From contig JAUWYL010000009.1 of the NCBI GenBank assembly GCA_030615855.1, forward strand, positions 1 through 38,512: DNA of 38,512 nucleotides, given 5' to 3'. Numbering within the stretch: the first letter of the stretch is position 1; every line of letters begins with the position of its first letter. This stretch comes from a bacterium. Its GTDB lineage: Bacteria > UBP18 > UBA7526. The notes under the pieces were generated by a model. It was given only the letters and a program-made list of their open reading frames with translations. It had not been told where the DNA came from and did no database searches. Made by a program: the position numbers and the translations under genes. Shown piece after piece: positions 2,302-37,788 of this stretch.

Positions 2302-2389
2302 GCATATCTCCAGAGATCTCTTTTATTTTCTTCCCTTCTACTATTCCATACTTTGCTCTATCTTCACCCAAAAATCTGGCATATCTCAT
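2282..2389 (-). pseudogene. N-terminal remnant of a fumarylacetoacetate hydrolase (FAH) family gene
   Basis: A 35-codon frame begins MRYARFLGEDRAKYG, continues with VEGKKIKEISGDMLG, and stops at 2282. This matches the usual first 35 residues of FAH-family hydrolases (a short N-terminal domain with the pattern RF...YG...G..I..I.GD..G), while the catalytic domain of about 200 residues is absent. Its ATG overlaps the dapB stop in an ATGA junction, as expected for a former operon member. The last third overlaps the start of folB in another frame. I infer a deletion that joined the FAH 5' end to folB. Identification rests on a short stretch. Confidence 0.6.
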
Positions 2390-3189
2390 TTAAGCTTAAG
2401 GACATCCTGCATATCGTAGAGGCCTTTCTTGGCTTTAACTATAAACTTTACTGCCCTCATGGCCCCCTGGGCAAAGGTATCCCTTGAATGGGCACGATGG
2501 GTAATCTCTATTCTCTCCCCGGTTCCGGCAAAGGTTATGGTATGTTCTCCCACGATGTCCCCAGCCCGGACAGCATGGATCCCGATCTCCTTCCTCGTTC
2601 TCTCGCCAGTCGCCCCCTTTCTTCCATAAACCCCGGCTTCTTTTAAGTTTCTTCCCAATGCCTTGGCTAAAATTTCTGCAATCCTAATGGCGGTTCCGGA
2701 AGGAGCATCCTTCTTCTTCCTGTGATGGGCCTCAACGATCTCAATATCGTAATCATCTCCTAAGACAGGGGCAATATCCTTTGCCAATTTGAATAAGAGG
2801 TTCACCCCCACGCTCATATTGGGAGCCATAACGCAAGGGATCTGGGTAGCGATCTCTTTAATCTCTTTCAGCTGCTCATCGCTGAAGCCAGTTGTTCCAA
2901 TGACCATGGCCTTGTTATGTTCAATGGCCATTCTTAGGTGATTTAAGGTGGTGTCTGGATCAGTGAACTCAATGAGCACTTCTCCTTCATCGATGATGTG
3001 CTCCAAGTCATCGCTTATCAGGACTCCTAATTTCCCCAATCCATTTACCTCTCCCGCATCCTTGCCGAAATTGGGATGGCCTTTCTTTTCCAAGGCACCA
3101 ACTAACTTAATCTCCTCATCATTCTTTATTGCTTTTATAATCCTGGCACCCATCCTTCCACAAGCACCGCTCACTATGGCTTTAATCAT
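2386..3189 (-). CDS. dapB: 4-hydroxy-tetrahydrodipicolinate reductase
   Basis: DapB reduces the DapA product with NAD(P)H in the diaminopimelate-lysine pathway. I set the start at the ATG at 3189, preceded by AGGAGG, giving 267 residues, the family norm. The frame is open about 19 codons further up, but that part runs into repeat sequence and has no family counterpart. Visible are the nucleotide-binding GACGRMG near the N-terminus, GTTGFS, APNMSVGVN, and the catalytic segment EAHHRKKKDAPSGTA with its His and Lys. DapA lies upstream, separated by an inserted GxxExxY gene and two repeat arrays. The stop overlaps the FAH remnant by ATGA. Confidence 0.96.
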   Translation of the reverse strand: MIKAIVSGACGRMGARIIKAIKNDEEIKLVGALEKKGHPNFGKDAGEVNGLGKLGVLISDDLEHIIDEGEVLIEFTDPDTTLNHLRMAIEHNKAMVIGTTGFSDEQLKEIKEIATQIPCVMAPNMSVGVNLLFKLAKDIAPVLGDDYDIEIVEAHHRKKKDAPSGTAIRIAEILAKALGRNLKEAGVYGRKGATGERTRKEIGIHAVRAGDIVGEHTITFAGTGERIEITHRAHSRDTFAQGAMRAVKFIVKAKKGLYDMQDVLKLK

Positions 3190-3202: not shown

Positions 3203-3263
3203 ACACGGATTTCTTTATTCTGCCTACTACTTGGGATTAAATACACGGATTATCGCGGATTTA
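3203..3263. repeat. CGGATT/AATCCG array between dapB and the first GxxExxY gene
   Basis: ACACGGATTT at 3203 and ACACGGATTATCGCGGATTT near 3243 flank a spacer whose core (CTACTACTTGGG) resembles spacers at 12743-12770 and 19895-19930. The TAA stop of the GxxExxY gene (3261-3263) forms the edge of the array. Confidence 0.8.
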
Positions 3264-3626
3264 ACCAAGAATCCTTCGTCTAATATCCAATTTTTCAGCA
3301 CCAAAGTTTACCAAGAAGCCTAATTTATAATTGGTCCCTTTCAGATAGTAATATAGTTGCTTCTCATAGACCTTAGGCATTTCGGGTACTGCTTTGATCT
3401 CAATAAGAATTTTATCTTCGATTACAAAATCTGGAACATATCTTCCAATACTTTTACCCTTGTAAGAAATTGATAATTGTGGCTCCTCCTTGAAAGAAAG
3501 ATTTCTTAACGTGAACTCTTTCACTAAAGCACGATGATAAATGACTTCTTTAAATCCTGGCCCTAAAGTATTATAGACCTCAAAGAAGGCTCCCCGAATT
3601 TTGTAGGTTAATTTTTCATACAACAT
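3261..3626 (-). CDS. GxxExxY protein, PD-(D/E)XK nuclease-like fold (copy 1)
   Basis: This 121-residue protein belongs to the GxxExxY family, assigned to the PD-(D/E)XK nuclease superfamily; no cellular role is established. The name motif is present as GFKEVIY (residues 24-30). The putative active site reads PDF, about ten residues, then EIKAV, supplying the Asp, Glu and Lys of the fold. The C-terminal half has QLYYYLKGTNYKLGFLVNFG, typical of the family. It starts at ATG 3626, directly against a repeat array on its upstream side, and its stop touches another array, so the ORF almost exactly fills the space between repeats. It interrupts the dapA-dapB pair, which suggests insertion. Copy 2 is at 36814-37200. 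Confidence 0.9.
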   Translation of the reverse strand: MLYEKLTYKIRGAFFEVYNTLGPGFKEVIYHRALVKEFTLRNLSFKEEPQLSISYKGKSIGRYVPDFVIEDKILIEIKAVPEMPKVYEKQLYYYLKGTNYKLGFLVNFGAEKLDIRRRILG

Positions 3627-3671
3627 TATCCGTGTCTATCCGTGTTGTTATCCGTGTCTATCCGTGTTTAA
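3627..3671. repeat. ATCCGTGT array upstream of the first GxxExxY gene
   Basis: The unit TATCCGTGTC is repeated four times with small changes. The array begins at the base after the GxxExxY start codon and ends in the stop codon of dapA (TAA at 3668-3670), so it joins the two genes without other sequence. Confidence 0.85.
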
Positions 3672-4573
3672 CTGTAGAAATCCATCAAGACCTTCTTCAG
3701 TTTCTCAACATTCTCTTCACTCATTGGTGATAAGGGAAGCCTTAATTCTGGGGTATCGAGTAGTCCCTGCAGGGCCATGGCAGTCTTCACTGGTATGGGA
3801 TTGGTCTCAATGAACATGGCCTTACATAAGGGAAAGATCTTATAGTGGACCTCTTTTGCCTTCTCTAAGTTTCCCTTATTAAACTCATCGACCAGGGCTG
3901 CCATCTCCGCCGGAACGAGGTTTGCCACCACAGAGATTACTCCCTTTCCTCCTAAGGCAAGCATGGGAAGGACGATAAAGTCATCCCCAGATATGAGGTC
4001 GAACTTATCTCCACAGAGTCCTACGATATCAGAAGCCTGCTTCAGATCGCCACTGGCCTCCTTTATGCCCACGATATTCTCTATCTTGGAGAGTTTGGCC
4101 ACCGTCTCGGGTAAGAGATTGACGCTTGTTCTTCCCGGAACATTATAGAGAACGATGGGAATATCCACCTCTTTAGCGATCTTCTCAAAGTGGAGATACA
4201 TCCCCTTCGGAGTGGGCTTATTGTAATAGGGGGTAATTATCAAGGCTCCATCTGCCCCAGCTTCTTTGGCATGCTTGGTCAAATTTAGTGCCTCCTCTGT
4301 ATTATTAGAGCCAGTTCCAGCGATTACCGGAACCTTCCGGGCCAGAGGCCCTTCCAGGCCGGAGGCCTTTCCCTTGGCCTCATCAATGACCACTTCCACT
4401 ACCTTCTCATGCTCCTCAAATGATAGGGTGGCACTCTCTCCCGTTGTTCCACAAGGGACAATAACATCCGTTCCATTCTTGATGTGGAAATCGACCAATT
4501 CCCTCAACTTCTTCTCATCCACCTTCCCCTCTTTAAATGGGGTAACTAAAGCCACCATAGAACCACTAAACAT
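3668..4573 (-). CDS. dapA: 4-hydroxy-tetrahydrodipicolinate synthase
   Basis: DapA condenses pyruvate with aspartate semialdehyde, the first committed step to diaminopimelate and lysine. Family marks are CGTTGESATLS (residues 41-51), GTGSNNT, TPYYNKPT, YNVPGRT (143-149) with the catalytic Tyr, and the Schiff-base Lys in GIKEASGD (Lys near 171). At 301 residues it is slightly longer than usual. The extra length sits at residues 70-80, where KGKASGLEGPLARK replaces a short loop before VPVIAG; this segment is encoded by a GC-rich palindromic run at 4337-4367. LysA follows upstream after about 115 bases. Confidence 0.96.
   Translation of the reverse strand: MFSGSMVALVTPFKEGKVDEKKLRELVDFHIKNGTDVIVPCGTTGESATLSFEEHEKVVEVVIDEAKGKASGLEGPLARKVPVIAGTGSNNTEEALNLTKHAKEAGADGALIITPYYNKPTPKGMYLHFEKIAKEVDIPIVLYNVPGRTSVNLLPETVAKLSKIENIVGIKEASGDLKQASDIVGLCGDKFDLISGDDFIVLPMLALGGKGVISVVANLVPAEMAALVDEFNKGNLEKAKEVHYKIFPLCKAMFIETNPIPVKTAMALQGLLDTPELRLPLSPMSEENVEKLKKVLMDFYS
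4337..4367. repeat. Palindromic in-frame insert in dapA
   Basis: A GC-rich run of alternating GGCC and its complements (GGGCCAGAGGCCC, then AGGCCGGAGGCC) encodes ASGLEGPLAR in a surface loop where DapA proteins normally have only a few residues. Composition differs sharply from the neighbouring codons. Confidence 0.6.
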
Positions 4574-4687: not shown

Positions 4688-5956
4688 TTATATTTCTTCT
4701 CCTCTTATTAGGTCGCTGTAGTCTTCTCTTTTCCTAATGATGCGATATCTATCTTTTTTTACCAAAACTTCAGCCACTTTAGGTCGGGCATTGTAATTGG
4801 AAGACATACTGAAGCCATAGGCGCCAGCATCGAGAATGGCAAGTAAATCACCAGACTTTACTTCTGGTAGTTCCCTGTTTTTAGCGAAATAGTCTCCGCT
4901 CTCGCATACTGGGCCAACAATATCTACAGTAGTTCGGAGTTCGGAGTTCGTAGTTCGTAGTTTCTTGATGGAAATGATCTCGTGGTAGGCGTTATAAAGT
5001 GTGGGGCGGATGAGGTTATTCATTGCCGCATCGACAATAACAAAGGTTTTCTCTTTTGTCTTCTTGATATAAAGAACTTTTGTTACCAATATACCAGCAT
5101 CACCAATAATTGCCCTTCCTGGCTCAAGGATTATTCTATACTTCAATCTTTTAATTAAGGGTAACAACTTTTTAGCAAACTCCCCAGAAGTAGGTGCTTT
5201 CTCATCCTTTTTGTAACTTATTCCCAAACCTCCTCCAATATCCAGATACCTTAATTTAATTCCTTCTTTTTCTAATTCCTTTATCAGTTCAACAATTTTT
5301 TCTAAACTATCAACAAAGGGTTCTAATTCTGTAATCTGAGAGCCGATGTGCATATGGATTCCCATAGTCTCGATATTCTTTAGTTCTTCTGCTTTTTTAT
5401 AGGCTTCTTTCGCCCCCGATATATCGATGCCAAACTTACTCTTCGCCAAACCAGTAGAGATATGGGGATGGGTATTGGGATCAATATCTGGATTTATTCT
5501 CAAAGCAACGGATGCCTTTTTCTTTAATTTTCCTGCTATTTTATTAGTAAGTTCTAACTCTGGAATGGATTCCACATTGAGCATTAGGATATCACTCTTT
5601 AAAGCGTATTCAATCTCTTCTTGAGTTTTGCCCACTCCAGAGAAAACTATCTTCTTAGGATCTACTCCTACCTTTAATGCTTTGTAGAGTTCGCCTCCAG
5701 AAACGATATCTGCTCCTGCGCCCTGTTCCTTCAAAAGTTTGCAAATAGAGAGATTAGAGTTCGCCTTGTAGGAGTAGCAGATGAGATGGTCGATTTCCTT
5801 AAAAGCCTCATCAAAGGCTCGGTAATTATTCGCGATTCTCTTCTGACTATAGAGATAGAAAGGAGTCCCTACTTTTCTATCAACATCCTCGATTTTTACG
5901 TCCTCACAATATAATTCATTATCTCTGTAATCAAAACTTTTCATCACTGTAATCAT
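4688..5956 (-). CDS. lysA: Diaminopimelate decarboxylase
   Basis: LysA decarboxylates meso-diaminopimelate to lysine using PLP. The PLP lysine is in CYSYKANSN (Lys64). HIGSQI, the glycine loop DIGGGLGI, EPGRAI, and CESGD are all present. The 422 residues include an unusual stretch near 332-343, LRTTNSELRTTV, encoded by tandem copies of GAACT-type words, inserted before DIVGPVCESGD. The ATG at 5956 overlaps the argH stop by ATGA, so LysA is translationally coupled to the arginine genes; an internal ATG five codons on is an alternative start. This places lysine synthesis at the end of an arginine operon. Confidence 0.96.
   Translation of the reverse strand: MITVMKSFDYRDNELYCEDVKIEDVDRKVGTPFYLYSQKRIANNYRAFDEAFKEIDHLICYSYKANSNLSICKLLKEQGAGADIVSGGELYKALKVGVDPKKIVFSGVGKTQEEIEYALKSDILMLNVESIPELELTNKIAGKLKKKASVALRINPDIDPNTHPHISTGLAKSKFGIDISGAKEAYKKAEELKNIETMGIHMHIGSQITELEPFVDSLEKIVELIKELEKEGIKLRYLDIGGGLGISYKKDEKAPTSGEFAKKLLPLIKRLKYRIILEPGRAIIGDAGILVTKVLYIKKTKEKTFVIVDAAMNNLIRPTLYNAYHEIISIKKLRTTNSELRTTVDIVGPVCESGDYFAKNRELPEVKSGDLLAILDAGAYGFSMSSNYNARPKVAEVLVKKDRYRIIRKREDYSDLIRGEEI
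4929..4963. repeat. GAACT/AGTTCG tandem words inside lysA
   Basis: Five near-copies of the word AGTTCGK in a row (GTAGTTCGGAGTTCGGAGTT and onward) are read through in frame in lysA. Homologues pass directly from the preceding strand to the DxVGPxCES segment. Confidence 0.75.
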
Positions 5957-12730: not shown

Positions 12731-12862
12731 AAACACGGATTTCTTACTTCACTTACTGCTTGAGTTTAAAAACACGGATTACACGATGCACTTCGTTGGC
12801 ATCGTAGGGTGCTTGAATAAATCAGGCAACGCCACGGATAAAATCTTAGACGCAGATTCAAA
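12731..12862. repeat. CGGATT repeats with a shared spacer core between M48 protease and LemA genes
   Basis: ACACGGATTT (12733) and ACACGGATTA (12771) flank a spacer with the core CTTACTGCTTGAG, which recurs in reversed orientation at 19895-19930. A small hairpin (GATGC...GCATC near 12785-12805), CCACGGATAA and GACGCAGATT follow. Confidence 0.75.
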
Positions 12863-19840: not shown

Positions 19841-19941
19841 ACGCGGATAATCACAGATTTTCTACGGATAATCGCGGATAAATCCGTGCTAATCCGTGTT
19901 TAATATACCCAAGCAGTAAGTAAAACGAAAAAATCCGTGTT
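19841..19941. repeat. AATCCGTG array between argC and argJ
   Basis: Words ACGCGGATAATCACAGATT, ACGGATAATCGCGGAT and AATCCGTGCTAATCCGTGTT are followed by a spacer with CCAAGCAGTAAG and a last AATCCGTGTTCA. The argC TGA stop forms the array's edge. The spacer core is the inverted counterpart of that at 12743-12770. Confidence 0.8.
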
Positions 19942-31955: not shown

Positions 31956-32040
31956 TACACGGATGATCACGGATTTTTTACGGATGATCACGGATTAAAT
32001 CCGTGCTAATCTGTGCCTTTTAATCTGTGCCTATCCGTGT
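31956..32040. repeat. Palindromic CGGATGATCACGGATT array upstream of leuD
   Basis: ACACGGATGATCACGGATTT and a second copy are mirrored by AATCCGTGCTAATCTGTG and CTATCCGTGT. The array directly precedes the stop of the small gene at 32043. Confidence 0.8.
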
Positions 32041-32548: not shown

Positions 32549-32611
32549 TACACGGATAATCACTGATTCTTTACGGATGGTCACGGATTAAATCCGTGTT
32601 GATCCGTGTTT
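32549..32611. repeat. CGGATAATCACTGATT array between leuC and the small genes
   Basis: The first 48 bases are almost identical to 37731-37779, so two distant gaps share the same array version. The leuC stop (TAA) abuts it. Confidence 0.8.
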
Positions 32612-35678: not shown

Positions 35679-35767
35679 ACACTGATTAGCACTGATTCTA
35701 TTATACGGATTAGCACTGATTTAATCTGTGCTCATCTGTCTCTTTCAATCCGTGCTCATCCGTGCTT
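35679..35767. repeat. CTGATTAGCACTGATT array between ilvC and leuA
   Basis: ACACTGATTAGCACTGATT and ACGGATTAGCACTGATTT are followed by AATCTGTGCTCATCTGT and AATCCGTGCTCATCCGTGC. The last two codons of ilvC (His-Gly) and its TGA stop are written in this repeat. Confidence 0.8.
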
Positions 35768-36776: not shown

Positions 36777-36816
36777 GCACTGATTAGCACCGATTACTAC
36801 GGATTAGCACTGATTA
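36777..36816. repeat. GATTAGCACTGATT array between the second GxxExxY gene and ilvC
   Basis: GCACTGATTAGCACCGATT and GGATTAGCACTGATTAGCC run into the TAA stop of the GxxExxY gene (36814-36816). Confidence 0.8.
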
Positions 36817-37200
36817 GCCATAAATTTTTCGTTTTACTTCCAGTCTTCTGGCTCCGAAGTTTGCTAATAGAACCAGTCTATATTTGGAGCCCCTAACATA
36901 GTAATAAATCTGATCCAGCATTGTTTTTGCTATGGCAGGAACCGCTTTTATCTCAAGGATTACTTTATCATCTATGATGAAATCAGGTTTATAGATACCT
37001 ACTGTTTCTCCCCGATAGGTTACTTTAAGTACCTTTTCTGTTTTAAATGGTATTTTTAGATGTTTAAGTTCAATGGCTATAGCATTATGGTAGACTGTTT
37101 CCTTATGCACCGGACCTAATGCTTTATGAATCTCATACAAGGCCCCTCTTATTTTATATGTCAAACCTTCATATAATAGTTGTCGTTTTTCTGTGCTCAT
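36814..37200 (-). CDS. GxxExxY protein, PD-(D/E)XK nuclease-like fold (copy 2)
   Basis: This 128-residue protein is homologous to copy 1 over its whole length (LTYKIRGALYEIHKALGP, PDFIIDDKVILEIKAVPA, YYYVRGSKYRLVLLANFGAR). The Asp-Glu-Lys site is kept (PDF...EIK), but the family motif has Val for the first Gly (VHKETVY). Its start, ATG-AGC-ACA, lies in the repeat word GGATGAGCACAG, so the first three residues are repeat-coded. Its TAA stop opens the downstream array. It separates ilvN from ilvC. The two copies differ enough to be separate arrivals or old duplicates. Confidence 0.9.
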   Translation of the reverse strand: MSTEKRQLLYEGLTYKIRGALYEIHKALGPVHKETVYHNAIAIELKHLKIPFKTEKVLKVTYRGETVGIYKPDFIIDDKVILEIKAVPAIAKTMLDQIYYYVRGSKYRLVLLANFGARRLEVKRKIYG

Positions 37201-37230
37201 CCGTTACTCAATCCGTGCTAATCCGTGTCT
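37191..37230. repeat. GTGCTCATCCGTTACTCAATCC array upstream of the second GxxExxY gene
   Basis: CTGTGCTCATCCGTTAC and CAATCCGTGCTAATCCGTG enclose the GxxExxY start codon and lead up to the ilvN stop (37233). Confidence 0.8.
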
Positions 37231-37728: not shown

Positions 37729-37788
37729 TGCACGGATAATCACTGATTCTTTACGGATGGTCACGGATTTAATCCGTGCTCATCTGTT
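37729..37788. repeat. CGGATAATCACTGATT array between ilvB and ilvN
   Basis: Near-identical to 32549-32611 over its first 48 bases, with an ATCCGTGCTCATCTG end that touches the ilvB stop (37791). Confidence 0.8.

Follow-up and report, generated by a model that had tools for sequence, protein, structure and literature searches.

Between dapA and dapB in the window (the whole stretch of 38,512 nucleotides analysed here), a gene of the GxxExxY family was found to be bordered on both sides by arrays of a short tandem repeat. We judge it somewhat probable that the gene and its arrays together form a minimal nuclease-based mobile element, whose nuclease would cut its own repeat and whose gene would be copied from array to array by host repair, although this cleavage is inferred and no biochemical evidence is available for it. 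The element would consist of an array, the GxxExxY gene and a second array, with a RecB/Cas4-like PD-(D/E)XK nuclease as the sole protein and with inverted arms of short tandem units as its ends (core CRCNRA; here CACGGAT every 10-12 bp). The same genomes also contain scattered arrays of this repeat that have no gene, and repeat type and protein lineage covary. Within what sequence comparison can establish, the ORF and its arms were shown to move jointly, as a unit, from slot to slot as well as from genome to genome.

The GxxExxY gene, its arms and its protein

The gene occupies 3261..3626 on the minus strand, and 121 amino acids are encoded from an ATG start. It was assigned to the GxxExxY PD-(D/E)XK nucleases by profile matches to TIGR04256 (GxxExxY, 128.5 bits against a cut-off of 35) and PF13366 (PDDEXK_3, 127.4 bits against a cut-off of 22) and by an AlphaFold model. 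Its upstream neighbour is dapA (3668..4573, minus strand; PF00701) and its downstream neighbour is dapB (2386..3189, minus strand; PF01113 and PF05173). An upstream arm of four CACGGAT units with spacings of 10, 12 and 10 separates the dapA stop from the start of the ORF (3627..3667, minus strand), while a downstream arm of two inverted units, which reads ATCCGCGataATCCGTG in gene direction, follows directly 3' of the ORF stop (3244..3260, minus strand). A lone further inverted unit is located immediately 5' of the dapB ribosome-binding site (3204..3210, minus strand). In gene direction, the dapA side is composed of the dapA stop TAA, a single A, CACGGATagaCACGGATaacaaCACGGATagaCACGGATa and the GxxExxY ATG, and the dapB side of GGTTAA, ATCCGCGataATCCGTGt, about 33 bp of non-array sequence, ATCCGTGtcc, AGGAGG and the dapB ATG. 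The four-unit array ends at most one base from the start codon of the ORF, and the stop codon touches the inverted two-unit array.

The first-pass annotation had described this locus as a GxxExxY nuclease ORF bounded by repeat arrays and splitting dapA from dapB, which was confirmed by the profile matches and by reading the coordinates. It had also placed the dapA stop within the array; the stop does abut the array, but one base lies between them. Its further remark that hardly any other sequence is present from dapA through array, ORF and array to dapB holds overall, except for the non-array stretch before the lone third unit. In the 1.375 Mb genome the pattern ATCNGTG-N2-4-ATCNGTG occurred 174 times versus 2 for the reversed control pattern, so chance was ruled out for the repeat pair. 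All genome-wide repeat counts were obtained by pattern searches of this kind, and the reversed-pattern control was inflated in three genomes (G092, G029 and G070), making the array counts there less certain. Short tandem repeats of a different type in each relative were also seen at one spot inside the coding sequence of lysA (4688-5956; window, L068 and L070): they are of the AGTTCGG type at 4931-4962 of the window, and at nearly the same place of the GATCGGTG type in G002 and of the GGATCCT type in G003.

The GxxExxY motif of the window protein reads G24-F-K-E27-V-I-Y30, and the predicted catalytic residues E27, D66, E76, K78, Q90 and Y94 (E-D-ExK-QxxxY) are conserved in 126-130 of 130 sequences. 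The AlphaFold model has a pLDDT of 95.7. Its best matches among solved structures, all with identities of 25% or less, are the archaeal SSO0001 (the best match, which we take to be a Cas4 protein), the alkaline exonuclease LHK-Exo, lambda exonuclease, AddAB and MGME1. From this model the protein is predicted to have a RecB/Cas4-like fold with an intact nuclease site. A Cas4 profile was matched by a homologue (E 5.5e-4), and the four-cysteine iron-sulphur cluster is absent, cysteine exceeding one half in only two columns of the 130 sequences. T7 endonuclease I is a cruciform-cutting enzyme, and its profile was matched only weakly (E about 1), which can serve as a lead only. Purifying selection was found between copies of the gene, with dN of 0.007-0.041 against dS of 0.13-0.47. 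In a published pipeline, a GxxExxY domain was reported where another tool called cas4 (PMC8934634). No account of the function or repeat association of GxxExxY, TIGR04256 or PF13366 was found in the open-access literature.

Six GxxExxY genes were recovered from the 1.375 Mb genome by a family search, two of them within the window, and inverted short-repeat arms are present at all six. The arms are of the CACGGAT type at three genes, and of the CAACGGAT/CGCGGAT, CACGAAG and CACTGAAGA types at one gene each; those of the two non-GAT types were recognised by eye, and the CACGAAG one fails the automatic unit count. The second gene of the window is located between ilvN and ilvC (36814..37200, minus strand) and has a start codon inside a repeat unit. 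Its upstream arm, CACGGATtagCACGGATtgagtaACGGATgagCACAG, spans 37186..37227 (minus strand), and its downstream arm consists of four inverted units (36778..36814, minus strand).

Five gene-less palindromic arrays, to which no strand was assigned, occupy intergenic or gene-edge positions in the window. The one at 35680..35764, about 1 kb from the second cassette, is MITE/REPIN-like and resembles the left and right arms joined without the ORF, the start-codon stretch included (46-bp match to the left arm, 87%, E 8e-10). The others are located at 31958..32039 (4+4 units), 32551..32608 (4+2 units), 37731..37778 (a near-copy of the preceding one) and 19842..19898 (4+2 units, intergenic). Hairpin folding was better than that of shuffled sequences in all four arrays tested, that is all except the last (z -3.2 to -5.2, the array at 35680..35764 having -5.2). 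Among the listed pairs of arrays at most 200 bp apart in the genome, the CAC-inward-GTG order was observed 16 times and the reverse order 0 times. No Rfam match above the gathering score was obtained at the arrays, and a known RNA family for them was rejected, as the only Rfam matches in the window were two tRNAs. The gene groES has a complete gene-less palindromic array on either side (L228, G000:C30:86300-88400), so ordinary genes can be bracketed where arrays are dense. A unit pair about 39 bp apart at 12734-12779 of the window resembles the ATCCGTG pair 3' of the GxxExxY gene.

Association of the gene with its arrays across genomes and phyla

At least five triple arrays were present in 20 of 26 genomes with the gene versus 3 of 54 without it (80 genomes; Fisher 8e-11). 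When one genome per family was counted, this number of arrays was reached in 17 of 21 genomes with the gene versus 3 of 54 without (p 2e-10), and in a phylum-wide set around G052 in 18 of 30 versus 4 of 116 (p 9e-12). G052 belongs to both genome sets, and beyond the one-per-family count these tests are uncorrected for phylogeny. In G052, which has 132 array matches, the 25-bp sequence ending its single GxxExxY gene recurs among them as single arms. Two pairs of genomes from the same genus were also compared: G052 with its gene-less relative G155 (26 arrays), and G184, which has the gene and 94 arrays, with the gene-less G186 (53 arrays). Arrays without the gene were counted in G013 (32) and G212 (30) as well as in G155 and G186, which counts against the mobile-element explanation; in G013, G186 and G212 the arrays can persist without the gene or have another mover. 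HUH-type proteins are encoded in G013, G155 and G186. In G013, where no GxxExxY gene was detected, a family of elements combines a CACAGAG/CACAAAG palindrome with a stretch of about 90 bp of similar appearance (L235-L264). No HUH transposase (Y1_Tnp, PF01797) was matched in the incomplete assemblies of the window's genome family (G000-G005), and on that ground an HUH/RAYT origin of the arrays was rejected for this family only.

Many bacteria and some archaea have GxxExxY genes. When species genomes were scanned, 80 loci were obtained from Proteobacteria, Planctomycetes, Chloroflexi, Acidobacteria, Bacteroidetes, Ignavibacteria, Cyanobacteria, Chlamydiae, Omnitrophota, Armatimonadetes, Methanothrix, Methanosarcinales and others, and the flank test was applied to 75 genes from other phyla. 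The alignment subset used for the scan favoured the LGPGLLES subfamily, and genes from the 98-genome family search gave the same picture. Tandem CRCNRAD units were detected on both sides of 51 of the 75 GxxExxY genes (for example, ACCACAGAGACACAGAGGCACAGAG-ORF-CTCTGTGTCTCTGTGCCTCTGTGGT) versus 3 of 747 control ORFs from the same loci, and the similarity between the two flanks was far above that of the controls (Mann-Whitney p 9e-29). For 130 genes, arrays in the expected orientation numbered 103 upstream (versus 23 in the opposite orientation) and 96 downstream (versus 33). CRCNRAD units were present on both sides of 88 of 136 genes, on at least one side of 121 and on neither side of 15. The enrichment of GxxExxY genes near the repeat, which had been proposed as a check from the window alone, was thus obtained gene by gene and also genome by genome; the idea would have been refuted by genes lying in fixed places without the repeat or by a lack of enrichment, and this was not the case. 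Counting against the mobile-element explanation are the 48 of 136 genes in which at least one side has no recognised CRCNRAD array, and also those genes that are located between two complete palindromes and not inside one, for which reason the rule that the gene always lies inside one palindrome was dropped.

Some cassettes occur immediately 5' of a glutamine-amidotransferase-like start (MIDNYDSFTYNLVQ) in betaproteobacteria (L105, L122 and L133), and others immediately 5' of a carB-like start (MPKRTDIKSI) in alphaproteobacteria (L114, L130 and L131). The position of cassettes upstream of similar genes in different genomes suggests preferred slots in operons. In L101 (920-3776) the order is a kinase-like gene, a PqqD-like gene, a radical SAM gene, the GxxExxY cassette and a 52-aa peptide. 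This looks like a cassette sitting in a peptide-modification operon, with the roles judged by the appearance of the sequences only.

The repeat unit differs among GxxExxY lineages (CACGGAT, CACAGAG, CACGAAG, CGCAGAG and others). For 93 genes with clear arrays, and with only pairs from different phyla or families considered, the distance between proteins correlated with that between repeat units (Mantel r 0.54; null sd 0.06 and maximum 0.23 in 2000 permutations), and the nearest protein from another group had the same unit type in 47 of the 93 cases versus an expected 23. This covariation is in line with the protein recognising the repeat, although co-inheritance of ORF and arms as one unit would give the same result.

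The arrays could also be moved by another enzyme or by array-array recombination, with the GxxExxY gene being only cargo between them, as might be supposed from the arrays without a gene in some genomes, the array pairs that also bracket groES, and the HUH-type proteins of some array-bearing genomes. We consider this unlikely, since in many phyla arrays bracket GxxExxY genes far more often than other ORFs, the repeat type covaries with the protein, most gene-less genomes of the phylum-wide set have few or no arrays, no HUH protein was found in the window's genome family, and the nuclease site is under strong constraint.

Movement between slots and between genomes

An empty site between dapA and dapB in close relatives, which the first-pass annotation had proposed to look for, was found in four of them: G001 and G002 of the same genus, and G003 and G005 of the same family. 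A GxxExxY gene is present at the same place in G004:C129, a contig binned to another genus. Between the window and this contig, the upstream array is identical at 41/41 positions and the ORF is 96.7% identical, versus about 87% for dapA and dapB, with dS values of 0.129 for the ORF, 0.676 for dapA and 0.715 for dapB. The low dS of the ORF and the identical array, set against the diverged flanks, indicate a recent lateral arrival at the shared site. The host lineage of G004:C129 is uncertain, because this contig is only 4.1 kb long and its MAG contains another dapA copy, on G004:C106, that has no GxxExxY gene beside it. A same-site insertion diverging more slowly than its flanks was seen at dapA-dapB, that is at one slot and for one genome pair. 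In L096, which is on G004:C129, the order ATCCGTG, about 33 bp with ccaagcagtaagc, and ATCCGTG occurs twice in tandem 3' of the GxxExxY gene; it occurs once in the window.

At ilvN-ilvC the gene is present in the window and in G005, a gene-less array with both arms made of a different unit (CGCAGAT) is present in G002, and no array is present in G003. The dS of the gene between the window and G005 (0.47) is similar to that of the flanks (0.59-0.74). Two copies in different slots of the same genome, C30:3099 and that at 36826 of the window, are 91% identical over 460 bp (dS 0.20, dN 0.007), with the similarity running from the outer border of one arm into the other arm, where it ends. Neither a target-site duplication nor an exact junction could be established, as the divergence of the relatives is too great and their empty slots are occupied by other sequence or by other array types. 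The earlier inference of a repeat-bounded mobile cassette is supported by the empty sites and by the enrichment at repeats, while cleavage of the repeat by the protein is inferred only.

It could be argued that the gene and its arrays are a domesticated, beneficial pair, in which the nuclease processes array hairpins or cruciforms for the host (in genome maintenance, at mRNA ends or in regulation) and mobility is secondary. This appears quite improbable: dN/dS between copies is low (0.04-0.09), the arrays are intergenic in core-metabolism operons and fold as hairpins, and there is the weak T7 endonuclease I profile match, but the patchy presence among close relatives, the several copies and many gene fragments per genome (G092 and G050) and the lateral spread look parasite-like. 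It is very hard to regard GxxExxY as an anti-phage or toxin nuclease that lies near repeats by chance, for although defence systems often contain PD-(D/E)XK nucleases, no PADLOC defence model was matched except for weak Cas4 matches, the cassette contains no partner gene, arrays accompany the gene far more often than chance would give, and the matches of one representative were limited to 8 of 72,556 plasmid records, with 0 among 50,697 phage records; by these last counts, a phage or plasmid origin was also rejected. Vertical inheritance of the dapA-dapB insert in the window and G004:C129, with its high identity due to constraint only, can be nearly dismissed: the slot is the same in both and at ilvN-ilvC the divergence of the two copies is about that of their flanks, but the dS of the dapA-dapB insert is five times below that of both flanks and relatives of the same genus are without the gene.

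Proposed mechanism and comparison with known systems

If the cassette is a mobile element, the nuclease would recognise and cut its own repeat in gene-less arrays, either as a duplex or as an extruded hairpin, and host repair would copy the gene from a gene-bearing array into the cut one, as in homing; both steps are inferred. Gene-less palindromes would then be targets, non-autonomous copies mobilised in trans, and relics, to be compared with the relation of REPINs to RAYT.

By analogy, the nearest system in logic is REPIN/RAYT. In REP/RAYT systems, a single gene is bordered by a short repeat, which is dispersed and intergenic and occurs as palindromic pairs and singlets; each RAYT gene type pairs with its own repeat type, and RAYTs are described as single copy (Bertels and Rainey 2011, PMC3116915). 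GxxExxY likewise has a bordering repeat, dispersed intergenic palindromes and singlets, and a repeat specific to the gene type. However, its enzyme is a PD-(D/E)XK nuclease instead of an HUH Y1 transposase, its repeat consists of 7-base units in tandem instead of a single hairpin REP, and unlike the single-copy RAYTs it occurs as near-identical copies in one genome. Since the defining HUH enzyme is absent, the GxxExxY system would work like REPIN/RAYT without being a member of it.

Homing endonucleases with a PD-(D/E)XK fold, such as I-Ssp6803I, share with GxxExxY a small nuclease gene, presence or absence at the same slot and an insert less diverged than its flanks; GxxExxY differs from them in not residing in an intron or intein and in its presumed target, a many-site repeat which is also found at both ends of the element. 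As with MITEs and their autonomous insertion sequence, there are gene-less copies that resemble the two ends joined (35680-35764), whereas the ends of GxxExxY cassettes are repeat arrays and not a fixed terminal sequence, and no target-site duplication was identified. No DDE, HUH, serine or tyrosine transposase was found inside the cassette, where PF13366 is encoded by the sole ORF that fills the interval between the arms. The fold and the E-D-ExK-QxxxY residues are those of the RecB/Cas4/lambda-exonuclease family, from which GxxExxY is set apart by its size of about 120 aa, by lacking the four-cysteine iron-sulphur cluster and, in the window, by being unlinked to CRISPR or recombination genes.

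More tentatively, and with somewhat less than even confidence, it is proposed that GxxExxY cassettes represent an unrecognised class of mobile elements in many bacterial phyla and some archaea, with a RecB/Cas4-like nuclease that cuts the element's own tandem-repeat ends as the only enzyme; such elements would home from array to array and would also be the source of the widespread and so far unexplained dispersed repeats of the CCACAGAGACACAGAG, CCACGAAGACACGAAG and CACGGATTAGCACGGAT types. GxxExxY is a named family without an explained function, and its repeats, to which no origin has been assigned, are found again and again in many genomes; once the two are connected, each acquires a testable function. 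The nuclease-repeat pairs across phyla are furthermore a natural set of small nucleases with likely targets in hand. If the nuclease moves the arrays, this would be a second, independently evolved REPIN/RAYT-like way of life that relies on DNA cleavage and uses no transposase.
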